The position numbers and the translations under genes are program-made. The notes beneath the pieces were generated by a model. It had not been told where the DNA came from. It did no database searches and saw only the letters and a list, made by a program, of their open reading frames with translations. From the NCBI GenBank assembly GCA_023512135.1, contig JAIMAG010000003.1, positions 1 to 64,000 of the forward strand: a stretch of 64,000 nucleotides of DNA, given 5' to 3'. Of the stretch, positions 1 to 12,720 are shown piece after piece (within the stretch, counting starts at the first letter, position 1; each line of letters begins with the position of its first letter). The DNA is from Terriglobia bacterium (GTDB lineage Bacteria; Acidobacteriota; Terriglobia; Acidiferrales; UBA7541).

Positions 1-1147
1 GCTCGAGGATGACGGCCGCGGCCAGCAGCCACGCCTCCCGCGTGGCCGGCGCGAGCGCGGTGTGGTCGATCCAACCGCCCTGCTCGAGTACCGGGTCGTA
101 GGGCACCACGCAGACCGCCCGGTTGCGCGAACGGAAGTGCCGGATCAGGTCGTCCTGCATGGGGCCGGGCCGCGGCGTGGTCATCGAGATGATCGTCACG
201 GCGTTGGCGACCAACTCGTCCCGCCCGGCCTCGGTGAGCACGTCCATCATCCAGTCGGCCGAGAACGCCGAGTCCTCGCGCGGCACCGTGGTGATCACCA
301 GCTGGTCGGCGGCCTCCATGATGGTGCGCCAGTTGCCGCTCTCCACGTTGTTGCCGGTATCGACGCAGATAACCTCGTGCGTACGGGTGAGCAGGTCGAG
401 CACCCGCCGTACGGTCGGCGGGTCCAGCCGCCAGGCGAACCGCGGGTCCTCCTCCCCGGCGAGAACGTCGTAGGTCCCGTCCGAGGCATGCCGTAGAAAG
501 TCGTCGATGCGAGCCGCCAGCGCGGGCCCGGTGTTGAGCTCCACCTCGGCCAGCTCCGAGACCAGGTGGCGGATCGTCCGGGCGTGCCGGGCGCTGCCGG
601 CCCGCAGGCCCAGCGTGCCGCGCAGCTCGTTGTCGTCCCAGGCGACCACGCCCCGGCCGCGGGCCCCGCCGATCGCCGCTGCCGCCAGCACCGTGGCGGT
701 GGTCTTGTGCACGCCGCCCTTCGGGTTGGCGAACGCGATCACCCGGGGGGTGTCGAGGTTGCGGCGCAGGATCGCCACCGCCCGCTCGGCCGGGCTGCCC
801 GGGGCGGGCACGATCCCCAGCGGCGCGGCCGACCCGCTGCGCTGCGGCAGGCCGGACTGCTGGTACGGCGCTGGGTAGGCCGCGGGCGACTGGCCAGGAC
901 CGTACTGCCCCGCACCGACCGCCGGCGCGGGTGAGCCCGGGTAGCCGCCCGCCGCCGGATACTGACCGGCCGGGTAGGCCTGCTGGTACGGCGGCGCCGG
1001 GGGGTTGGCGGTCGCCGGGGTCGCCGGCGGCGCCTGATCCGCCTCAGCCCCTGGCACACGTGCCCGGCCCGCCGCCCGATCGAGGATCGTCCGCCACCGG
1101 CCAGACGACTCACCGGCGGCTCGGCTCCACCCGGTGTCGGTCCCCAC
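1..1147 (-). CDS. ParA/MinD-like P-loop ATPase, partial (3' end off the left edge)
   Basis: About 382 codons are visible. The start is taken as GTG at 1147-1145 because GGAGAGGG lies five bases upstream of it. The first ~120 residues are a low-complexity Pro/Tyr/Gly/Gln tail. A deviant Walker A motif (ANPKGGVHKTTATV) follows near residue 140, with the ParA-type signature lysine replaced by the KGGVHKT form. Further on, a Walker B-like VICVDTGNN and a stretch ITTVPREDSAFSADW resemble SIMIBI-class MinD/ParA proteins. Such actinobacterial proteins are often annotated as chromosome-partitioning or secretion-associated ATPases, but the tail argues against a plain chromosomal ParA. It is the last visible gene of a leftward actinobacterial group. 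The family call is firm; the role is unknown. Confidence 0.8.
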   Translation of the reverse strand, partial: MGTDTGWSRAAGESSGRWRTILDRAAGRARVPGAEADQAPPATPATANPPAPPYQQAYPAGQYPAAGGYPGSPAPAVGAGQYGPGQSPAAYPAPYQQSGLPQRSGSAAPLGIVPAPGSPAERAVAILRRNLDTPRVIAFANPKGGVHKTTATVLAAAAIGGARGRGVVAWDDNELRGTLGLRAGSARHARTIRHLVSELAEVELNTGPALAARIDDFLRHASDGTYDVLAGEEDPRFAWRLDPPTVRRVLDLLTRTHEVICVDTGNNVESGNWRTIMEAADQLVITTVPREDSAFSADWMMDVLTEAGRDELVANAVTIISMTTPRPGPMQDDLIRHFRSRNRAVCVVPYDPVLEQGGWIDHTALAPATREAWLLAAAVILE

Positions 1148-1340
1148 GCTGACCCTCTCCAGCCTGTACCTGTCGTCGTGTCGGTCCGCGGGTGACACCG
1201 ACGGTGCCGCCCGCTACCGCGGCAGCACCAGACTACCGGCTCGGCCGCGATCGCCCGACGGCGCGCGCTCCCGCCCTGCCCTGACCCCCGACAGGTCCAC
1301 CCGGGCGGCCGGCGTGCGCCACCTGGCGTCCGACCCGGCA

Positions 1341-2183
1341 TCAGCCGCCGGTCGGGAGTGCCTCGTCGACCGGCGGAGTCACCCGGTCGACGTGCTCCGG
1401 CAGCAGCGGAGCGAAGACCGCCTGCCGGGGATCGGCGACGTCCGGGGCCGGATCGACCGCCCGCACGTCGGGCAGCGCCGCCAGCCCCATGAGCGCGGTC
1501 ACGCTGCCCCGGACGACCAGACCGTAGACGCAGGCGCACGCCTGCCGGTAGGCGTCCGCCTCGGCCCGGGCGACCTGCGCGTTGGACTCGTAGATGTCCC
1601 GCAGCGGGCCGGCCGGCTCGTCGCGCGCCCGGTCCGCGTACGACTGGGCGTCCGCCTCCTTGGTCTCGGCCACCTCGGCCATCGATATCAGAAGATCTTC
1701 GGGAAGCCGGATGGCGGTCAGGGTCACCAGTTGGGTCTGCCGGCCCGGCAGCGGGACACGGCCGTGGGCGGTCACGGCGCTCACCCCCGACGCCGCCGCG
1801 ACCGCCGCCGCGACCTCGTCCGGGGTCAGGTAGTGCGCGAACGAGACCAGGGCGTACACCACCCGGTCCGGGTCCTCCGCCGCCAGCGCGGCCAGGCGCG
1901 CCGCGCTCAGTCGGAGATAGACCGGCACCTGGTCGCCCTCCCGCACGCCGACCCACACCGGCGAGGTGCCCGGCGCGGCCGGTTGATCGGGACGGATCAC
2001 GACCACGAGGAGCGTGACGGCCGCGGCGGCGACCACGACAGCGGCCGGCAGCCGCGCGCGCCGCCACCACCGGGCGGCCCGGGCCCGCAGCCGGGCCAGC
2101 CCCCGGGACAGGGGAGGCAGGACCGTCTCATCCACTGTGGACAGTACGGCGTCCACCAGCCACAGAGCTCGCCGAGCACGCAT
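1341..2183 (-). CDS. Single-pass membrane protein of unknown function (actinobacterial)
   Basis: 280 residues. A basic N-terminal segment of about 45 residues (rich in Arg and Ala) precedes one hydrophobic helix at roughly 46-62 (AAVVVAAAAVTLLVVVI). The remaining ~215 residues should be extracytoplasmic and are predicted to be mostly helical, with alternating Ala/Asp/Arg. There are two cysteines close together (QACACVYG). I recognise no enzymatic motif. The stop of the RluD-type gene lies eight bases upstream of its ATG, so it is probably co-transcribed with that gene and with the ParA-like gene downstream. The N-in, C-out arrangement and the ATPase neighbour might suggest a membrane partner of that ATPase, but this is only inference from position. 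Confidence 0.7.
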   Translation of the reverse strand: MRARRALWLVDAVLSTVDETVLPPLSRGLARLRARAARWWRRARLPAAVVVAAAAVTLLVVVIRPDQPAAPGTSPVWVGVREGDQVPVYLRLSAARLAALAAEDPDRVVYALVSFAHYLTPDEVAAAVAAASGVSAVTAHGRVPLPGRQTQLVTLTAIRLPEDLLISMAEVAETKEADAQSYADRARDEPAGPLRDIYESNAQVARAEADAYRQACACVYGLVVRGSVTALMGLAALPDVRAVDPAPDVADPRQAVFAPLLPEHVDRVTPPVDEALPTGG

Positions 2184-2191
2184 GGCCCGCC

Positions 2192-3145
2192 TCAGCCGGC
2201 CGACCGGAGCACGCGTAGGGCCTCGGCGAGGTCGTCCGGGTACGGGCTGTCGAAGTGGACATGCTCACCGGTGCCGGGATGGACGAAGCCCAGTTCCTTC
2301 GCGTGCAGCCACTGCCGGGACAGGCCCAGCCGCGCCGCCAGCGTGGGGTCGGCGCCGTACGTGAGGTCACCCACGCACGGGTGCCGCAGCGCCGCCATGT
2401 GCACGCGGATCTGGTGCGTACGCCCGGTCTCCAGCCGGATCCGCAGCAGGCTCGCGCCGCGGAACGCCTCCAACGTGTCGTAGTGCGTGATACTCTCGCG
2501 ACCGCCGGAGACCACCGCCCACTTGTATTCCGACCCGGGATGGCGGTCGATCGGCGCATCGATCGTGCCCCGCAACGGATCCGGGTGGCCCTGCACCACG
2601 GCGTCGTAGATCTTCTCGACCTCACGCGCCTTGAACGCCCGCTTGAGCGCGCTGTAGGCGGTCTCGCTCTTGGCCACGACCATGAGACCAGAGGTGCCGA
2701 CGTCGAGCCGGTGCACGATGCCCTGCCGCTCCGCCGCCCCGCTGGTCGCGACCGGCTGCCCCATCGCAGCCAGGCCCGCCAGGACCGTCGGACCGGTCCA
2801 GCCCGGGCTCGGATGCGCCGCCACCCCAGGCGGCTTGTCGACCACGACGATGTCGGCGTCGCTGTACACAATGGACAGACCCGCGACCGGTTGCGGCGTG
2901 ACCGCCGGCTCCGCGGGCGTGGCCGGGCGGGGCAGCGTCACCTCCAACCAGGCGCCGGCGCCGAGCTTGTCAGCCTTCGCGCGGGCGACCCCGTCCACGA
3001 GCACGTCGCCCTGGTCGACCAGGCTCGCCGCGACCGTACGGGACAGGCCGAACAGGCGCGCGACCGCCTGGTCCAGCCGCATCCCGGCCAGGCCGTCGGG
3101 CACGGGCAGGGCACGCCGGTCCCGATCCGGGCTCCTGTCTGCCAC
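2192..3145 (-). CDS. RluA/RluD-family pseudouridine synthase
   Basis: 317 residues from a GTG start (3145-3143) preceded by GGAG at suitable spacing. An S4-like RNA-binding segment occupies about residues 20-70 ([18 protein letters not shown] and [11 protein letters not shown]). The catalytic domain follows, with the family signature [16 protein letters not shown]148 is the expected catalytic aspartate. RluD-family enzymes isomerise uridines in the helix 69 region of 23S rRNA, but RluA, RluC and RluD cannot be separated securely from sequence reading alone. It lies 15 bases downstream of lspA, an arrangement common in Actinobacteria and many other bacteria, and therefore belongs to the same leftward operon. 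Confidence 0.93.
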
Positions 3146-3160
3146 CCGCGGCTCCGCCGC

Positions 3161-3730
3161 CTACGCGTCGCCGGACGGGCGCTGGTCGACCACCCGGGTG
3201 CCGTCGCGCCGGAAGGCGAGCAACTCCAGCGCGATGGCGAGCACCACCCCGACGGTCAGCGCCGAGTCCGCGATATTGAAGATGGGAAACCTTTCGCCGG
3301 CCGGGGCGAAGACGCTGATGAAGTCGACCACGTGTCCCCGGAACGGCCCGGGTTCCCGGAACAGGCGGTCGACGAGATTGCCCTGCGCCCCGCCCATGAT
3401 GAGGCCGAGCGCCAGCGCCCACGGCCAGGACCGCACCTGCCGGGTGAACCACAGGATCCCGGCGCTGATCACGATCGCGATGATCGTGAAGATCCACGCG
3501 AACCCGGTACCGAAGCTGAACGCCGCGCCCGAGTTGAAAGCCAGGTCCAGGTAGATGAGACCGCCGAGAAGGCGCACCGTCGAACTGTCGGCCAGCCCGT
3601 CGAGGGCCAGCTGCTTGGTCCACTGGTCCAAGCCGATGATGATGGCGGCGGCGCTGAGCAGCACCAGGTACGCGGCCCGGGCGCTGCGGACTCGCCCCGC
3701 CGAGCGGGTCGGCGCCTCCTGGAGCGTCAT
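3161..3730 (-). CDS. lspA: Lipoprotein signal peptidase II
   Basis: 189 residues, a normal length for LspA. The start ATG at 3730-3728 has GAGGAGG just upstream; a longer reading frame in the same phase would add an implausible Arg-rich segment. Four hydrophobic segments are evident. Two conserved aspartates expected to form the catalytic dyad lie in GGAQGNLVDRLF (D121) and FNIADSAL (D155), with the intervening VVDFISVF stretch also typical. LspA cleaves the signal peptide of diacylglyceryl-modified prolipoproteins at the outer face of the cytoplasmic membrane. It sits 37 bases downstream of the DksA-type gene and 15 bases upstream of the pseudouridine synthase gene. Confidence 0.95.
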   Translation of the reverse strand: MTLQEAPTRSAGRVRSARAAYLVLLSAAAIIIGLDQWTKQLALDGLADSSTVRLLGGLIYLDLAFNSGAAFSFGTGFAWIFTIIAIVISAGILWFTRQVRSWPWALALGLIMGGAQGNLVDRLFREPGPFRGHVVDFISVFAPAGERFPIFNIADSALTVGVVLAIALELLAFRRDGTRVVDQRPSGDA

Positions 3731-3767
3731 GCCGCCTCCTCTGCGCCGGCGCGGGCGCCGCGACACC

Positions 3768-5102
3768 TCACCGTCGCTCCTCCAACTGCTTGCACGACAC
3801 GCAGAGGGTAGCGGACGGGAACGCGGCGAGCCGCTCCACGGGGATGGCGTTGCCACACCGCTCGCACCAGCCGTACTGACCGTCGTCGAGGCGGTCGAGC
3901 GCGCGCTCCACCTGCCCGATGCGCTCGCGCAGGTTGTTGGCGAGCGTGAGCTCCTGCTCGCGCTCGAAGGTCTTGGTACCGGTGTCGGCCTGGTCGTCAC
4001 CGGCCGAGTCGGTGAGCCGGTCGCGCTGGGCCTCGGCGATCTCCGAGATCGTCTGGTCGTACTCGGCCCGCAGATCGGCCAGGCGCTCGGTCAGGGCCGC
4101 CCGGATCGTCTCGGTCTCCGCCTCGGACCGCGCCGGTCGCGGTGTCTCGGCCTTGCGGGGCGCGGCCTTGGTCGCGCTCGCCCGGCCCGACCGTCCCGAG
4201 CTGCTGGTCTTGACCGGGGTGGGCGGGCTGGCCGGGACGGCCGGGCTCACCGGAGCCGGGCTCACCGGAGCGGGCGGGCTCACCGGAGCGGGCGGGCTCA
4301 CCGGAGCGGGCGGGCTCACCGGAGCGGGCGGGGTCACCGGGGCCGGGCCCGTGACGGTGGCGGCGACGGTGGCCGCGCTCGGCGCCGGAACCGGGGAGGC
4401 ACCGGGTGAGACCGGGACCGCCTCGGCGTCCTTCCCGGACGCCTTGGCGCCGGACGCCTTGGCGCCGGACGCCTTGGCGGACGCCCGTGTGGTCGCCTTG
4501 GCGCTCTTGGCTGGCGTGGCGGCGGCCTTGTCGGCGGCGGACTTGCCGGCGGCCTCCGTTCCGGTGGATTCCGTGGCCGCGGAAGACTTGGCGGCGGCCT
4601 TCGGAGCCGTCGCCTTCGCCGCCCGGCTCGACTTCGTCGCCTTCACCGCCCGGCTCGACCTCGTCGCCTTGACCGCGGTCGGCGCCCCGACGCCCGTCGC
4701 CGTCTCGACGCTGGGGACCGCCGGCGCGGCGGTGGGCTCAGCCGCCACGGCGGCCTTCGCGCTCCGCGCTGACTTCGCCGCCGTACGGGTCGCCTTCGCC
4801 GCAGTGTCACCGGCCGCCGTGCTCGCCTTGGCGGCCCCGGCCGCCGTCGCCTTCGCGCGGGTCGCCTTGGCCGGCCCGGCGGCCGACTTCGTCCGCGGAG
4901 CGTTGGTCGCCGCCTTGCCAGGGGCCTTCTTGGCCGCCTTGGCGGGGGCTGGGGCCGGCCGGGGGGCGGCAACCGCAGCCTTACGGGACTTCGCAGCCGA
5001 CCCTGGGGTGGACTGCGCCGGGATCACCTGGTGCTCGGCCGACATGCCGCGTCGGGTGGCACTCTTCGCGGCTTTCCGCATGGAGTTTGCCCGCTCGGCC
5101 AT
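3768..5102 (-). CDS. TraR/DksA-family zinc-finger protein with long Ala/Lys/Pro N-terminal extension
   Basis: 444 residues. The last ~115 form a canonical actinobacterial TraR/DksA domain: a coiled-coil stretch (LADLRAEYDQTISEIAEAQ, FEREQELTLANNLRERIGQ) and a C-terminal C4 zinc finger WCERCGNAIPVERL...CVSC. The first ~320 residues are low-complexity, histone H1-like, rich in Ala, Lys, Ser, Pro and Thr, and include a PAPVSP tandem repeat. DksA-type proteins bind the secondary channel of RNA polymerase; a basic tail of this kind could bind DNA or simply be a linker. The start MAERANSMRK (5102-5100) is chosen because the reading frame upstream runs into sequence of different origin. It would be the first gene of the leftward actinobacterial operon. 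Confidence 0.88.
   Translation of the reverse strand: MAERANSMRKAAKSATRRGMSAEHQVIPAQSTPGSAAKSRKAAVAAPRPAPAPAKAAKKAPGKAATNAPRTKSAAGPAKATRAKATAAGAAKASTAAGDTAAKATRTAAKSARSAKAAVAAEPTAAPAVPSVETATGVGAPTAVKATRSSRAVKATKSSRAAKATAPKAAAKSSAATESTGTEAAGKSAADKAAATPAKSAKATTRASAKASGAKASGAKASGKDAEAVPVSPGASPVPAPSAATVAATVTGPAPVTPPAPVSPPAPVSPPAPVSPPAPVSPAPVSPAVPASPPTPVKTSSSGRSGRASATKAAPRKAETPRPARSEAETETIRAALTERLADLRAEYDQTISEIAEAQRDRLTDSAGDDQADTGTKTFEREQELTLANNLRERIGQVERALDRLDDGQYGWCERCGNAIPVERLAAFPSATLCVSCKQLEERR
4246..4332 (-). repeat. Tandem repeat inside the DksA-type gene (one 15-bp unit and four perfect 18-bp units)
   Basis: Four perfect copies of the 18-mer CTCACCGGAGCGGGCGGG run head to tail from 4261 to 4332, preceded by a 15-base shortened unit at 4246. 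On the coding (minus) strand each unit encodes the hexapeptide PPAPVS. The identical nucleotide sequence of the units, not just of the peptide, points to recent slippage expansion, so copy number probably varies between strains. Confidence 0.9.
4438..4479 (-). repeat. 15-bp tandem repeat (about 2.8 units) in the DksA-type gene
   Basis: The unit GACGCCTTGGCGCCG is repeated at 4438, 4453 and, truncated, 4468. On the coding strand it gives a GAKAS pentapeptide repeat in the basic tail. Same likely slippage origin as the nearby PAPVSP array. Confidence 0.8.
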
Positions 5103-5220
5103 GACGCTCCCCCAGATAGACAAAACGGGCGCACGGCCGGGCGCCGCGGCGGCTCGTGACCCTCGCCGGCGAGATCGAGTTCCGGAGCCAGCGCTTCCGC
5201 TGCACCGACTGCGGCGCCGA
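5103..5220. other. Junction between two unrelated genomes, with a possible transposase zinc-ribbon fragment
   Basis: Left of here all genes look actinobacterial; right of here all look acidobacterial with lower GC. Between them, the plus-strand frame starting near 5141 reads LVTLAGEIEFRSQRFRC and continues TDCGAE, ending in the next frame's GVHFFK reading. This resembles the N-terminal zinc-ribbon region of ISKra4/UPF0236-like transposases, although the match is too short to prove. The hexamer GCGGCG occurs twice around 5210-5227, possible microhomology for a join. No promoter for the DksA-type gene can be recognised here. Either an assembly chimera or, less likely, an insertion-mediated junction. 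Confidence 0.6.
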
Positions 5221-5379
5221 AGCGGCGTGCATTTCTTCAAGACACGCTCCCTGCACTGCGAACCGCTGGGAGAGGCCACGGTGTACACCCAGTTGGACGG
5301 CGAAGCCACGGGGCGGCTGCCCTGCGTGTTCACGATTGTGCCCGATGCGCTGACTTTGATGGTGCCCGAGCAGCTCTGA
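5221..5379 (+). pseudogene. C-terminal fragment of a diacylglycerol/lipid kinase-like protein (5' part missing)
   Basis: The last 52 codons of an open frame end in TGA at 5377-5379. The reading VYTQLDGEATGRLPC followed by FTIVPDALTLMVPEQL matches the C-terminal end of YegS/DgkB-type lipid kinases, where a conserved aspartate-glycine-glutamate (DGE) and a xVPDALxxxVP strand close the second domain. The kinase catalytic domain is absent because the join lies just upstream. The stop is three bases before the ATG of the next gene, suggesting an original operon. The fragment is important mainly because it marks where the acidobacterial sequence begins. Confidence 0.7.
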
Positions 5380-5382
5380 ATC

Positions 5383-6372
5383 ATGGAAACGGTGACGCAG
5401 CTACTGATCGCGATGGTGCTGGCTCGGGCAGGGCTGGAACGGCTGGCCGCAGGTTCGGTGTGGGTACTCGCAGCTCTGACGCTGCTGCTGGACGCGGACC
5501 TGTTGAGCCAGCGGTTCGGCGCAGCAGCCTATCTGGAGTGGCGACGCACGGCGACTCACTCGCTGACTGGCGCGGGAGCGATCGCGATTGCGGTGGCGCT
5601 GCTGTTCTGGTGGCTCCGCCGGAGGAGTCGCCGTCCGGTGCGGTTGCTGGGCGCGCTGGCGGCAACTCTGCTGGGAGCCGGGGCGCACCTGCTGGTCGCG
5701 CTGCTGGACGTGCATGGAGCACAACTGCTCTGGCCCTTTCGCCGCGACTGGTACGCGTGGGATTTGCTCGAGCCGATGGATCCGTGGGTGCTGTTGCTGC
5801 TGACGGGCGGGCTGCTGCTGCCAGCGCTGTTCCGGCTGGTGAGCGAAGAGATCGGCGCACGCAGCAAACCACGGTCGTACAGCCCGGGAGCCCTGCTGGC
5901 GCTCGTGCTGGTAGCCGGCTACTGCGGCAGCCGGGCCGTGCTGCACGCGCGCGCCAAGCAGATGCTCGACGCGCAACTCTACTTCGGGGCCGCGCCGCTG
6001 GCCGTGGGCGTTTTCCCGGCGTCGGCTTCACCGCTGCTCTGGCGCGGCGTGGTCGAAACCGAAACGACGCTGGAAGTCTTCGAAGTACGGGCCGGAACGG
6101 AAACCACGCTGCGCACCGTGCAGACGCACTACAAACCCGAACCCTCACCGGTGCTCGAAGCGGCGCGGTCGACCGAGGCGGTGCAGCGCTTTCTGCCTTT
6201 TGCGCGCTTTCCCCTGGCGCGCATCGTGCGGCTGGTGGAAGGCTACCGGGTCGAGGTGCGCGACCTGCGCTTGGTGCCCTCACCAACGGTGCCGGTGCCC
6301 ATGGCCGTCGTGGAAACCGACGAAAGGATGCAGGTGACAGCCCAGCGGGTCGAGTTCACCTTCGCCCCTTAA
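5383..6372 (+). CDS. YdjM-like (LexA-binding/metal-dependent hydrolase family) inner-membrane protein
   Basis: 329 residues. About five hydrophobic helices fill residues 5-185; the rest is a soluble domain with beta-strand character. The N-terminal half follows the PF04307 pattern: METVTQLLIAMVLARAG, a D-x-D-L-L segment (LLDADLL) and RRTATHSLTG, which correspond to the family's VTH...G, PDxD and HRGxTHS motifs. The first histidine is Gln here and the HRG histidine is Arg, so the proposed metal site is incomplete. Family members are membrane proteins of poorly known function; YdjM of E. coli is an SOS gene. The gene starts three bases after the lipid-kinase stop, and its TAA overlaps the stop of the convergent DedA-like gene by two bases. 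Confidence 0.75.
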   Translation: METVTQLLIAMVLARAGLERLAAGSVWVLAALTLLLDADLLSQRFGAAAYLEWRRTATHSLTGAGAIAIAVALLFWWLRRRSRRPVRLLGALAATLLGAGAHLLVALLDVHGAQLLWPFRRDWYAWDLLEPMDPWVLLLLTGGLLLPALFRLVSEEIGARSKPRSYSPGALLALVLVAGYCGSRAVLHARAKQMLDAQLYFGAAPLAVGVFPASASPLLWRGVVETETTLEVFEVRAGTETTLRTVQTHYKPEPSPVLEAARSTEAVQRFLPFARFPLARIVRLVEGYRVEVRDLRLVPSPTVPVPMAVVETDERMQVTAQRVEFTFAP

Positions 6373-6980
6373 CCCGGCGCAGGGCCGCCGGGCCGCGGAC
6401 GCAGCAGCACCCGCGTGAGCAAGTAGCTGAGCGCAAACAGAACCAGAATCCCCAGCGCGAATTCCAGTTTGTGGGCAACCAGATAGTCCACCGCCTGCTC
6501 GCCGTAGCGCACGGCCAGCGCCCCTTCGCCGAAATAGCGCAGGCCGCGACCGACCAGCAAAGCCAGCACAAACGTGCGCGGCGGGAGGTTCAGGCCACCG
6601 GCGGCCAGCACGAAAGCTTTAAAGGGCATCGGCGGAGGCAGCATCGAGGGGATGGCGATGCTGAGGAAGCCGTTGCGTTCGATCCAGTGCCGGATGCGGG
6701 CGGCGCGCGCGCTCGCCGACGACCTGCGCGCAAACCACCGACTGCCACGGCGGGCCAGCTCGTACAGACAGAGACTGCCGGCCAGCGAGCCGAGCGTGGC
6801 CATCAGTGCGTAGTACGGCATCCGGGCCGGCGCCTGCATGGAAAGATGCATGACGAGCACATCGTTGATGACAGGAAAAGACAGCACGGAGCTGTCCAGG
6901 AAGGCCACCACGAACAGGCCCAACCCGCCCATCGAACCAATCAGAGATTGTAGCCAGGAGGGAAACCCGTCCGGTTGCAT
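6369..6980 (-). CDS. DedA/VTT-domain membrane protein
   Basis: 203 residues with five to six hydrophobic segments. The pattern of a re-entrant first helix (GGLGLFVVAFLDSSVLSFPV), a glycine-rich segment with GSLAGSLCLYELAR, and SMLPPPMPFKAFVLAAGG is that of the SNARE-associated/VTT (DedA) family. The conserved F-x-x-R region and the proline-rich loop are recognisable. DedA proteins take part in membrane lipid homeostasis, for example undecaprenyl-phosphate or phosphatidylethanolamine flipping and drug or pH tolerance. The substrate here is unknown. Start ATG 6980-6978 is used; a TACAAT -10 box lies at 7016-7011 on the same strand. The gene is transcribed away from hppA. Confidence 0.85.
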   Translation of the reverse strand: MQPDGFPSWLQSLIGSMGGLGLFVVAFLDSSVLSFPVINDVLVMHLSMQAPARMPYYALMATLGSLAGSLCLYELARRGSRWFARRSSASARAARIRHWIERNGFLSIAIPSMLPPPMPFKAFVLAAGGLNLPPRTFVLALLVGRGLRYFGEGALAVRYGEQAVDYLVAHKLEFALGILVLFALSYLLTRVLLRPRPGGPAPG

Positions 6981-7050
6981 CGCGCGGTTCGCTCCGCACT
7001 GCCGGCTGGCATTGTAACAAATCACAGCCGGCGCCCAGCTACAGCGATTC

Positions 7051-7079
7051 TTGACGATCAAGGGGAATCCTGCTACAAA
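7051..7079 (+). promoter_or_regulatory. Predicted sigma-70 promoter of hppA
   Basis: TTGACG at 7051-7056, a 17-base spacer, then TACAAA at 7074-7079 preceded by the extended -10 bases TGC. The predicted start site near 7086 leaves a leader of about 140 bases before the hppA ATG. The -10 context ATCCTGCTA is shared with the TonB-receptor promoter at 41,711. Confidence 0.55.
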
Positions 7080-7223
7080 GCAGCATTTGCGGCATCGGCG
7101 GTCATCACGCCTTGTCCATTGCCTGAGGGAATCTGCACGGCGTACATCGCCCGGGCACGTCCGAGCCACGGACGGCCCTACCGGGTTGGGAACAGCAAAA
7201 ACGAACCGAACAGGGGAGGCAGC

Positions 7224-9377
7224 ATGTCGCCTGAAGCTGGCTGGATGTGGTTTGTCATGGGGATCAGCGTGTTGTCGCTGGGGATGGCGGCACTCTTCAC
7301 GCGCCAGGTGCTTTCGGCCGATACCGGCACGGCCGCCATGCAGCAGATCGCCGCAGCCATCAAAGAAGGCGCCGAAGCGTTTCTGCGTCGGCAGTACAAA
7401 ACGATCTACCTCTGGAGCCTGCTGATCGGCTTGCTGATCTTTATTTTCTACCTCATGGTACACGGCGCGGCACTGGCCTGGCGGACGACGATTTCATTCG
7501 TGGTGGGAGCGATCTGCTCGGGGATTGCCGGCTTCAGCGGCATGTTCGTTTCGATTCGGGCGAATCTGCGGGCAGCGGCGGCAGCGCGGACTGACCTGAA
7601 CCGGGCGCTGCAACTGGCACTACGCGGCGGCGCTGTGACGGGCCTGTCAGTGGTGGCCATGTCGCTGTTGGGCGTGGGGGGTATCTTCCTGCTATTTGGC
7701 GGGATGGACGACCCGCAGACGGTGCCGTACCAGATTGTGGGATTCGGCTTCGGAGCGAGCCTGGTGGCGTTGTTTGCCCAGCTCGGTGGCGGTATCTACA
7801 CAAAAGCAGCCGACGTGGGCGCTGACCTGGTCGGGAAAGTGGAAGCAGGCATCCCGGAAGACGATCCGCGCAATCCGGCGGTGATTGCCGACCTGGTTGG
7901 TGACAACGTGGGCGACTGCGCCGGCCGCGGCGCGGACCTGTTCGAGTCCACTGCGGCGGAAAACATCGGGGCCATGATTCTGGGAGTGGCCCTGTTTGGA
8001 CAGTTCGGGTTGCTGGCGATTTTCTTCCCGCTGGTGGCCCGGGCGTTCGGACTGATTGCCTCGATCCTGGGCGTGTGGGCCGCACGGATGCGCAGCGAAA
8101 CCGAAGACCCCATGACGGCACTGAATCGCGGCTACCTGGTCACCACCCTGTTTGCCGGCATCGGGTTCTACATCTCCGTCCACTTCCTGCTCGGCAACAA
8201 TCTGTGGTTCTTCGCGGCGGGGCTGATCGGAATTGCCACCAGCTACCTGTTCGTGTGGATCACCCAGTATTACACCGAGTACCGCTACCGGCCGGTGCTG
8301 ACGATTGCGGAAAGCTCAAAGACCGGGCCGGCGACCAACATCATCACCGGCTTTGCCGTGGCGCTGGAGTGTACGGGACTGCCGGTGCTGACGATTTCTG
8401 CAGCGATTCTGGGCTCGTACTACTGCGGGCAGCGCGGCCTGCCGGACGTACCCGGCGCGGGGCTCTACGGCACCGCGGTGGCCACGATGGGCATGCTTTC
8501 GACGGCGGCCTACATTCTGGCGATGGATACTTTCGGGCCCATCACAGACAACGCCGGCGGGATCATCGAGATGTCCGGCGCCCCGGAGGAAGTGCGCAAG
8601 CGCACCGACCGGCTCGATTCCGTCGGCAACACGACCAAGGCACTCACCAAGGGATACGCCATCGGGTCGGCCGCGCTGGCGGCGTTTCTGCTGTTTTCCG
8701 CGTATCTCGACGAAGTCACCGTGCTGCTGCGCAAGGCCGGCGCACCGGCGACGTACTATTTCGCTTCCGTGGACATCGGTAAGGTGCCCGTGTTCATCGG
8801 CGCGCTGATCGGTGCAACGCTGGTGTTCTTGTTCAGCGCATTTGCCATCAAAGCGGTGGGGCGCACGGCACAGCTCGTCATTGAAGAAGTGCGTCGACAG
8901 TTCCGCGAAAACCCGGGCATCATGGAAGGACGCACGAAACCGGACTACGGCCGCTGCGTGGACATCGTGACGGCCGGTGCCCTGAGAGCTATGGCGCTGC
9001 CCGGGTTGCTGGCCGTCGGCGTGCCGGTCGCGGTGGGCTTTCTGTTCAAGTACCTGCCTGCCGGCGAGGGACTGACCATCGGGGAAACCGTGCTGAATAC
9101 GATCGGTGCCGAATCGGTGGCGGCCGTGTTGATGGTGGGCACCATCGGAGGCATCCTGCTGGCAACGCTGATGAACAACGGCGGCGGAGCGTGGGACAAC
9201 GCCAAGAAATATATCGAAACCGGTCAGTTTGGCGGGAAACGGTCGGAGGCGCACAAAGCCGCGGTGGTCGGTGACACCGTCGGCGACCCGTTCAAAGACA
9301 CCGCCGGGCCCTCGCTGCACGTGCTGGTCAAACTGCTGAGCACCATTACGCTGGTCATGGCCCCGCTGTTTCTCTGA
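7224..9377 (+). CDS. hppA: Membrane-bound H+-translocating pyrophosphatase, K+-independent type
   Basis: 717 residues from the ATG at 7224, which follows GGGGAGG; an in-frame start far upstream is unlikely. About 16 hydrophobic helices. The substrate site is clear: GGGIYTKAADVGADLVGKVE, then GIPEDDPRNPAVIADLVGDNVGD, and later TDNAGGIIEM and GDTVGDPFKDTAGPS, with the aspartates that bind Mg-pyrophosphate. The potassium-selectivity position reads GNTTKALTKG with Lys472, the hallmark of K+-independent H+-pumps, where K+-dependent enzymes have Ala. The enzyme couples pyrophosphate hydrolysis to proton export from the cytoplasm, saving energy from biosynthetic by-products. It stands alone behind its own promoter and diverges from the DedA-like gene. 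Confidence 0.96.
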   Translation: MSPEAGWMWFVMGISVLSLGMAALFTRQVLSADTGTAAMQQIAAAIKEGAEAFLRRQYKTIYLWSLLIGLLIFIFYLMVHGAALAWRTTISFVVGAICSGIAGFSGMFVSIRANLRAAAAARTDLNRALQLALRGGAVTGLSVVAMSLLGVGGIFLLFGGMDDPQTVPYQIVGFGFGASLVALFAQLGGGIYTKAADVGADLVGKVEAGIPEDDPRNPAVIADLVGDNVGDCAGRGADLFESTAAENIGAMILGVALFGQFGLLAIFFPLVARAFGLIASILGVWAARMRSETEDPMTALNRGYLVTTLFAGIGFYISVHFLLGNNLWFFAAGLIGIATSYLFVWITQYYTEYRYRPVLTIAESSKTGPATNIITGFAVALECTGLPVLTISAAILGSYYCGQRGLPDVPGAGLYGTAVATMGMLSTAAYILAMDTFGPITDNAGGIIEMSGAPEEVRKRTDRLDSVGNTTKALTKGYAIGSAALAAFLLFSAYLDEVTVLLRKAGAPATYYFASVDIGKVPVFIGALIGATLVFLFSAFAIKAVGRTAQLVIEEVRRQFRENPGIMEGRTKPDYGRCVDIVTAGALRAMALPGLLAVGVPVAVGFLFKYLPAGEGLTIGETVLNTIGAESVAAVLMVGTIGGILLATLMNNGGGAWDNAKKYIETGQFGGKRSEAHKAAVVGDTVGDPFKDTAGPSLHVLVKLLSTITLVMAPLFL

Positions 9378-9457
9378 GTGGCGCGGGGCTCCGCCTGCGG
9401 GGCACCACCGGGAACGTTCCACGACAGGACACAGCGAAAACGCCGCGCCCGCTCGGG

Positions 9458-10723
9458 CTAGCTGCGAAGCAAGCCGAGGAACGTTTTCTGGTCGGCGGTG
9501 AAGCCCGGGAAGACCGCATCGAGCTGTGTGTTGCCCAAGTGACGGGCGATCAGTTCGCTGAGCACGGTGCGGAAATCGGTGGTCAGCGCCAGGTCGCGAC
9601 CCTCGAACAATTGCTCACGTTCCAGCCCCGGCCATTTGCCGTAGACTTTCCCGCCCCGCACATCTCCCCCGAGAACGAAAAAGCAGGTGGCCGTACCGTG
9701 GTCGGTGCCGCGGTTGCCGTTTTCGTGCACCGTGCGACCGAACTCGCTCATAGTGACCAGAACAACATCGGCCATCCGTTCGCCCAGGTCGCGGTGAAAT
9801 GCGGCCAGTCCCTGGGCCAGGTCGCGCAGCAGATTGGCCAGCTGTCCCTGCACGCCGCCTTCGTTGACGTGGTGGTCCCAGCCACCGCTGTCGAGAAATG
9901 CGCACTCCAGGCCGATGTCGGCTTTGATGAGCTGGGCTACTTGCAACAATGCCTGGCCAAAGCGCGAGCGGGGATACTCGGCTCCGTTTTCGGGCTGGTA
10001 GCGTGCAGGATTATTGCGGCGCAGGATATCCATGGCCTCAAACATCTCCTGCCCGACGCCTCGCAGGGCCTGATCCACCGCCTGGGCGTACATGGCCTCG
10101 AAGCCACCCACCACCGCCTGCGGCGCCAGCACCTGGAATTGGCGCACGTCGGCCAGGGCCACGGCCGGAGCCGCACCCGCCAGCGTGCGGGGCAGCGCCG
10201 GCCCGAGCGCAACGGCACGGAAGGGCGACTCCCTGCGGTCTTCGGCAAGTTCGGCGTCGCTGACCTGCAGATGACGGTTCAGCCAGCCGTCCGGAGTGGA
10301 TTTCCGGCCCGGTGTGCCGGACTCCATGTAGTCCTGAGCGTCGAAGTGCGAGCGCGTATAGGCCGGAGAGCCGACCGCGTGCACAATCGCCAGTTCCTGG
10401 TTCGAAAACAGCGGCAGCAGCGGCTCGAGCGAGGGGTGCAAGCCGAAGAAGCCATCCAGGTCCAGCGCGGCTTCGCGGTTGCCGCGCTGCGGCCGCGGGA
10501 TGGCGATGGTCGGGCGCAGGCGGTAGTAGTTGGCTTCACCGTAGGGGATGACGGCGTTCAGTCCGTCCAGGGCACCGCGCTGGAACAGCACAACCAGAAT
10601 TTTCCGGCGGCTGCCCTTCTGCTGCGAAGCCGCCACCGCACGGGTCAGGAATCCAGGCAACGCACTGAAGCCGAGCAGGGCGATGCCGCTCGATTTGAGA
10701 AACACTCTGCGGGTCAGTTCCAT
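9458..10723 (-). CDS. DUF1501 family protein with Tat signal
   Basis: 421 residues. The N-terminus MELTRRVFLKSSGIALLG is a twin-arginine-type signal (TRRVFLK) followed by a hydrophobic stretch and an AVAA cleavage region. The mature part matches DUF1501, a family related to alkaline-phosphatase-fold sulfatases: VLFQRGALDGLNAVIPYG, SHFDAQDYMESGT, the SGGWDHH stretch and VTMSEFGRTVHENGNRGTDHG. The start is supported by GGAGGTCCGCC before the ATG. It lies 62 bases downstream of the DUF1800 gene, and this pair recurs together in Acidobacteriota, Planctomycetota and others, so a joint extracytoplasmic task is likely, but its substrate has not been established as far as I know. Confidence 0.9.
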   Translation of the reverse strand: MELTRRVFLKSSGIALLGFSALPGFLTRAVAASQQKGSRRKILVVLFQRGALDGLNAVIPYGEANYYRLRPTIAIPRPQRGNREAALDLDGFFGLHPSLEPLLPLFSNQELAIVHAVGSPAYTRSHFDAQDYMESGTPGRKSTPDGWLNRHLQVSDAELAEDRRESPFRAVALGPALPRTLAGAAPAVALADVRQFQVLAPQAVVGGFEAMYAQAVDQALRGVGQEMFEAMDILRRNNPARYQPENGAEYPRSRFGQALLQVAQLIKADIGLECAFLDSGGWDHHVNEGGVQGQLANLLRDLAQGLAAFHRDLGERMADVVLVTMSEFGRTVHENGNRGTDHGTATCFFVLGGDVRGGKVYGKWPGLEREQLFEGRDLALTTDFRTVLSELIARHLGNTQLDAVFPGFTADQKTFLGLLRS

Positions 10724-10785
10724 GGCGGACCTCCTGGGTCGGATTTGCGGGCTGGACGCGAAGGTCTGGCCGACTTCGTCCCTCC

Positions 10786-12720
10786 CTAACGACGCTGAAA
10801 TTCCGGCGCGCCCAGCACCAATCCGAACACGAGCGCAGCATTGATTTCACGGGCCGGATCGTCGAGCACCGCCTGGCGAATCTGCGGGTCTGCCAGCTGG
10901 CGTTCGATGGTGGTGCGCGTCTCCGGTGAGATCTGGCCGGCGAGGAATTGGCTGACCGCGCGATCGAGCACCGCGTGGGGATCGCGCGGATCGGTGCGCG
11001 CCAGCAGACCGGTCAGGTCCACGCGCACACCGCGCACGCGATTGGCAGCCAGGGCAATGGCGAAATTCAGCCGGTGCAGCAGAGCACCCGTGTTCACCCA
11101 GGCTTCGGCGCGATCGGAGTATCCGGTGGGCGGCTGGCACTGGTAGAGCGGCTCGCCGATGCGTTCGACCCAGCTCACCAGCAGCAGTGGCACTTCGACT
11201 TCTGCGCCCAGGGCACGCACAGCGCTGGCCACCAGCTCGAACGGCTTTTTGATTTTGGCGCGGTAGACCTGTCGCGACCAGAACTCTGGCGAATAGACCA
11301 TTGACTGGACGACAGCGCGAATGTCGCCATCGGTCTTCTGAAAAGTTTCTGCCATGCGCGCAACCAGCGACTCCGGGGGAGTGTCCGAGACAAACCGCCG
11401 GGCCAGCTTCGTGGCGATGAACCGTGCCGTACTGGGATGGCGGACGAGCAGGTCGAGCACAGCCTCGCCGTCTTTTTTGCCCCCGTAGTGAATCTTCTTC
11501 CCGAGAACGATTTTCTCACCCGGGTCGTGCAGCCGTGCGTCGAAATAGAACTCGGGATCGCGGTTCAGGGCCCGCAGGGTCCAACCGGTGAAGGCGCGGG
11601 CGACTTCGAGGATGTCCTGCTGGGTGTAGCCGCCATCCACGCCGAGTGTGTGCAGCTCGAGCAGTTCTCGAGCATAGTTTTCGTTCAAGCCGCGACGCTG
11701 GCGCAAGCGCTGCTGAGCAGCCTGCGGGTTGCCTGCGGCCGCAGATTGCTGCTGCCGATCTGCCCGACGCGGATCGCCGGCCATGCGGCTCTGCCGCGGG
11801 AGAACAAAAAACGGGTCGAACGGCTCGCCGAAACGGTCGCGGCGGCTGGCATTGCCGAAGCGCTGCTGGAACAGTTCCCGGCGGCGGGTCAGTTCCTGCT
11901 CGAGCCGCTCGTACGCTTTCGGGTCAATGCTGAGCCAGTTGTCCAGATAGAAAAGCATCGCCGGATGTTCGGCCGTGGCACCCAGCAAATCGCGAAACTT
12001 GCCGAGCACGTGCGGACGAATTGCGTCGCGCTCGTACGAGGTAATCAGCCAGCGATCGGCGCCTTTGCCGGCAAACACGTTGAAGTGGTTGAACCAGAAA
12101 TCCGCGAGGACCTCGGCAAGTTGCCGCTCTGAATAGATGGCCCGTGTGAGCTTGGCCATGGCCAGCTCGGCCGTGATGCGGCCCGGCAGGCGAATCTCCG
12201 TGTAGCGGGCCGGGTCCTGCGCCAGGGCACGCAACGATGCCGGGACTTCGCCCGGGCTGGGGCGCTGCTCCTGCATCCGCCGACGATATTCTTCGACCGA
12301 GATGCCCATGCGCCGTGCAGCCAGAGCTGGATTGGGAAATTCTTCCAGCAGTTGGCCCGAAGACATGGTCAGGGTGGGATAGCGTTCCAGACGGCGGGCA
12401 ACGGCGGCGTCGTGGATCTGTTCAGGATGGAGCTGCGCGCGGATCCAGGTTTCCAGTCCCATCGCGCGGATGCGTTCCACTTCCCCGGGCCGAGGACCGA
12501 AGCCCAGCCGGTTCAGCGCGTGCAGAATGGCTTCCTCTTCGGTGAGCTCAGTGATGGGCAACCGGCCCGCCCAGGCCGGTGCGCTCACCGCCGGCCGCTG
12601 TGCGCGAAGAGAGGGTACCGCCAGCGTCAGCAGCCCCAGCCAGCACAGCAGCAAACCGGCCGTTCGTAGCCGCCTGGAAGTCCATGGAAGCCATCCGGCA
12701 ACAGAACTCCTTCTCTGCAT
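10786..12720 (-). CDS. DUF1800 family exported protein
   Basis: 644 residues. The N-terminal ~40 residues form a signal peptide with an Arg-rich start and LLLCWLGLLTLAVPSLRA. The body has the DUF1800 features: HALNRLGFGPRPGEVERI near the start, then VLADFWFNHFNVFAGKG, and later GLNENYARELLELHTLGVDGGYTQQDI split across the protein, and KLARRFVSD. A Gln/Arg-rich linker (around residues 320-345) interrupts the domain. ATG at 12720 is preferred to the GTG directly before it; AGGGG precedes both. It is the first gene of a two-gene leftward operon with the DUF1501 gene. Function unknown; the partner relationship is well established by gene neighbourhood. Confidence 0.9.
   Translation of the reverse strand: MQRRSSVAGWLPWTSRRLRTAGLLLCWLGLLTLAVPSLRAQRPAVSAPAWAGRLPITELTEEEAILHALNRLGFGPRPGEVERIRAMGLETWIRAQLHPEQIHDAAVARRLERYPTLTMSSGQLLEEFPNPALAARRMGISVEEYRRRMQEQRPSPGEVPASLRALAQDPARYTEIRLPGRITAELAMAKLTRAIYSERQLAEVLADFWFNHFNVFAGKGADRWLITSYERDAIRPHVLGKFRDLLGATAEHPAMLFYLDNWLSIDPKAYERLEQELTRRRELFQQRFGNASRRDRFGEPFDPFFVLPRQSRMAGDPRRADRQQQSAAAGNPQAAQQRLRQRRGLNENYARELLELHTLGVDGGYTQQDILEVARAFTGWTLRALNRDPEFYFDARLHDPGEKIVLGKKIHYGGKKDGEAVLDLLVRHPSTARFIATKLARRFVSDTPPESLVARMAETFQKTDGDIRAVVQSMVYSPEFWSRQVYRAKIKKPFELVASAVRALGAEVEVPLLLVSWVERIGEPLYQCQPPTGYSDRAEAWVNTGALLHRLNFAIALAANRVRGVRVDLTGLLARTDPRDPHAVLDRAVSQFLAGQISPETRTTIERQLADPQIRQAVLDDPAREINAALVFGLVLGAPEFQRR

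Follow-up and report, generated by a model that had tools for sequence, protein, structure and literature searches.

An actinobacterial segment and a truncated lipid-kinase gene at the terminus of a Terriglobia contig: a very probable assembly or library chimera

The window analyzed here, a stretch of 64,000 nucleotides, comprises bases 1-64000 of contig C29 (211,361 bases) and therefore opens at the first base of that contig, within a draft genome of 51 contigs and 2.83 Mb (completeness 97.4%, contamination 1.6%). Its first 5.1 kb, which form the terminus of the contig, encode five genes on the reverse strand. A ParA/MinD-like ATPase gene (2..1198, weak AAA_31/ParA matches), cut by the contig end, is followed by a reading frame for a hypothetical protein lacking a family match (1341..2183), an RluD-type pseudouridine synthase gene (2192..3145) whose amino acid identities mark it as actinobacterial, and a gene for the signal peptidase II LspA (3161..3730, family matches, with an inferred start codon). 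The fifth gene encodes a DksA/TraR-type regulator (3768..5102, family matches) with a long Ala-rich N-terminal part. This part, which is Ala/Pro/Lys-rich, exceeds 300 residues and contains short direct repeats. An Rfam search of bases 1-12000 returned no match.

The preliminary description of this DNA had attributed an actinobacterial character to the five leftward genes, and this attribution is borne out by the comparison with named genomes, in which RluD shares 56-69% amino acid identity with Actinomycetota compared to 36-44% with relatives of the binned organism. Furthermore, a scan of 396 Actinomycetota genomes led to G256, a genome with a 7.0-Mb single-contig chromosome, in which dksA, lspA, rluD, the hypothetical gene, and the parA-like gene occur in the same order as in the window. 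DNA identity to G256, likewise in the same order, amounts to 78% for parA (bases 18-772), 72% for rluD-lspA, and 83% for the C-terminal coding region of dksA. The region in G256 has its genes, their order, and their strands in common with the window, including a parA-like gene beyond dksA-lspA-rluD, while differing from it in two respects: the DksA of the window has a far longer Ala-rich N-terminal part, and the antiporter gene found upstream of dksA in G256 is missing from the window owing to the join described below. The similarity extends past the dksA start, as the sequence directly preceding dksA in G256 recurs identically in 18 bp of the window (5120..5137, reverse strand, E 3e-5), making base 5137 the last one attributable to the actinobacterium. 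Judged by these matches, bases 1-5137 are an ordinary, colinear segment of an actinobacterial chromosome. It is worth noting that the draft contains a second pair of lspA and rluD on contig C34.

On the other side, a YegS-type lipid-kinase gene is represented on the forward strand by approximately its last 60 codons (5198..5379, YegS_C match), its 5' part being missing, and is followed by the gene for a YdjM-like membrane protein (5383..6372, forward strand, Pfam YdjM), with which the intact genes of the binned organism begin. Homology to the genus sister G001 runs from base 5198 rightward, with 83% DNA identity over 1503 bp; the kinase remnant shares 78% amino acid identity with the end of the full-length kinase in the sister, and the YdjM-like gene is 82% identical in the sister. 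By homology, the sequence from 5198 onward is thus assigned to the binned organism, and the YegS_C match together with the full-length kinase of the sister confirms the earlier statement that the right side starts inside a lipid-kinase gene.

Composition changes abruptly between the two parts. The GC content falls from 71-78% within bases 1-5000 to 62-69% beyond, and the tetranucleotide distance of bases 1-5000 to the centroid of the right-hand sequence is 0.461, while the right-hand windows (n = 54) lie at 0.134 +/- 0.020 (SD) from their own centroid, with a maximum of 0.199. Conversely, the left piece is only 0.176 away from the actinobacterial segment of G256, compared to at least 0.416 for the right-hand windows. 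The GC fall, the tetranucleotide profile, and the homology of each side confirm that sequences from two different genomes meet abruptly at this site, as had been claimed before. The breakpoint itself had been placed at 5103/5221 and has to be moved to within 5138-5197, because actinobacterial homology reaches 5137 and homology to the sister begins at 5198.

The intervening 60 bases (5138-5197) match neither side. Together with the following 23 bases, they form a fragment (5138..5220, forward strand) resembling the zinc ribbon of ISKra4/ISH6-type transposases (NCBIfam ISH6, E 4e-5; ISKra4, E 5e-4), which comprises fewer than 30 codons and is cut at both ends. The preliminary description had made no mention of this fragment. 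Neither shuffled peptides nor peptides from the sister's kinase region, used as controls, gave a transposase match. Nevertheless, since the 23 bases at 5198-5220 are counted both in the transposase-like stretch and in the kinase homology, some of the similarity to transposases may be due to chance. When copies of 5105-5235 were sought in the draft and its relatives, the kinase end of the sister was recovered along with weak, short matches only, and plasmid searches likewise yielded only weak matches. The join was seen in none of the relatives examined.

At the same site, the sister carries a complete kinase gene (353-codon reading frame) preceded by a divergent ligA. This arrangement is widely conserved: in 29 of the 30 relatives with a YdjM homolog, ligA lies on the YdjM contig, on the opposite strand and within 2.8 kb. 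In the draft, ligA was not found on any contig, and queries with DNA and the kinase protein of the sister did not recover the 5' end of the kinase gene from anywhere in the draft; contig C44 encodes only a distant kinase paralog (26% identity). A clue to the position of the missing sequence comes from the contig ends of the draft, which were fetched and compared, those of contigs of at least 3 kb being judged. Many of these ends share overlaps of exactly 77 bp, from which we infer that the draft was assembled from a de Bruijn graph with k = 77. Moreover, contig C173 of the sister ends with exactly 77 bp (L119:19176-19252) that also open contig C4 of the draft (L156:1-77), and a TonB-receptor-like reading frame runs through this overlap. 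This suggests a shared assembly graph for the two drafts, or else a misbinned C4; it likewise points to the gap between C29 and C4 as the place of the missing sequence of approximately 4.6 kb, again unless C4 is misbinned.

Taken together, we consider it very probable (roughly 96%) that the contig is chimeric, with bases 1-5137 originating from an actinobacterium and the sequence from 5198 onward from the binned organism. A chimeric contig had already been put forward as the simplest explanation, and it is supported by the colinear actinobacterial terminus, by the loss of the kinase 5' part and ligA, and by the absence of the join from relatives. The two sides differ in taxonomic affinity, the join breaks a gene and a linkage that relatives conserve, and 29 of the 30 relatives with the YdjM gene have the opposite-strand ligA next to it instead. 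In the proposed course of events, an actinobacterium of the same sample would have supplied bases 1-5137, the two pieces would have become fused at the library or assembly stage, and the true left neighbors, i.e., the kinase 5' part and ligA (approximately 4.6 kb in the sister), are those missing from the draft. A short stretch of approximately 23 bp (5198-5220), shared by the transposase-like fragment and the kinase gene, could have guided the wrong join, and we infer that the join arose in this way. The exact route is nonetheless unexplained, because this stretch is shorter than the k of 77 deduced above. A contig of the same sample in which either side continues intact was not recovered. 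With its terminal foreign segment, abrupt composition step, cut gene, and missing neighbors, the contig resembles interphylum chimeric contigs in metagenome-assembled genomes, from which it differs by the third, approximately 60-bp transposase-like fragment between the two parts.

The alternative that fares best, albeit as a very unlikely one, is a recent natural transfer, in which an actinobacterial segment of at least 5 kb entered or replaced the kinase-ligA region, perhaps via an insertion sequence. The transposase-like fragment at the join and the intactness of the actinobacterial genes would fit such an event, but it would have truncated the kinase gene and deleted ligA, which is essential and present on no other contig, and it would have added second copies of lspA and rluD to a genome that already has its own. 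In addition, the segment has retained its actinobacterial composition unchanged, is terminal on the contig, and is absent from relatives. An acquired island would have host flanks continuing beyond it or elsewhere, whereas neither ligA nor the kinase 5' part occurs anywhere in the draft. As to a mobility module or attachment site, the join shows only the truncated transposase-like stretch. An insertion sequence as the main cause of a natural join was rejected, as the fragment comprises fewer than 30 codons, is truncated at both ends, and overlaps kinase DNA. Slightly less probable still is a true recent actinobacterial transfer in which the incoming DNA took the place of ligA and the 5' part of the kinase gene while DNA ligation passed to an unrecognised enzyme. 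Finally, the least probable reading takes the contig as one genome throughout and its left part as a GC-rich region of the lineage's own: GC content does vary along the contig, but the RluD identities given above and tetranucleotides far outside the right-hand range refute it.

An assembly or library chimera represents a data error rather than a gene transfer, and the finding therefore bears on data quality only. Bases 1-5197 should be trimmed from the contig, because they would otherwise give rise to false cases of gene transfer and to duplicated lspA and rluD in the genome. The absence of ligA, in turn, should be taken as an assembly gap and not as a biological loss.

The bin holds further foreign DNA besides the 5.1-kb piece, namely contigs C1 and C7 (L153 and L159), which have a GC content of 28-31% and of which C1 carries genes of glycosyltransferase and polysaccharide-export type. 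Contig C12 (L164, 4118 bases) has a GC content of 70% at its start, encodes proline-rich and phage-like reading frames, and is slightly nearer in its tetranucleotides to the actinobacterial G256 than to the right side of the window. Furthermore, the end of C50 (L236) and the start of C44 (L195) show unusual tetranucleotides (distances of 0.73 and 0.53, respectively) and a GC content of 53-56%.
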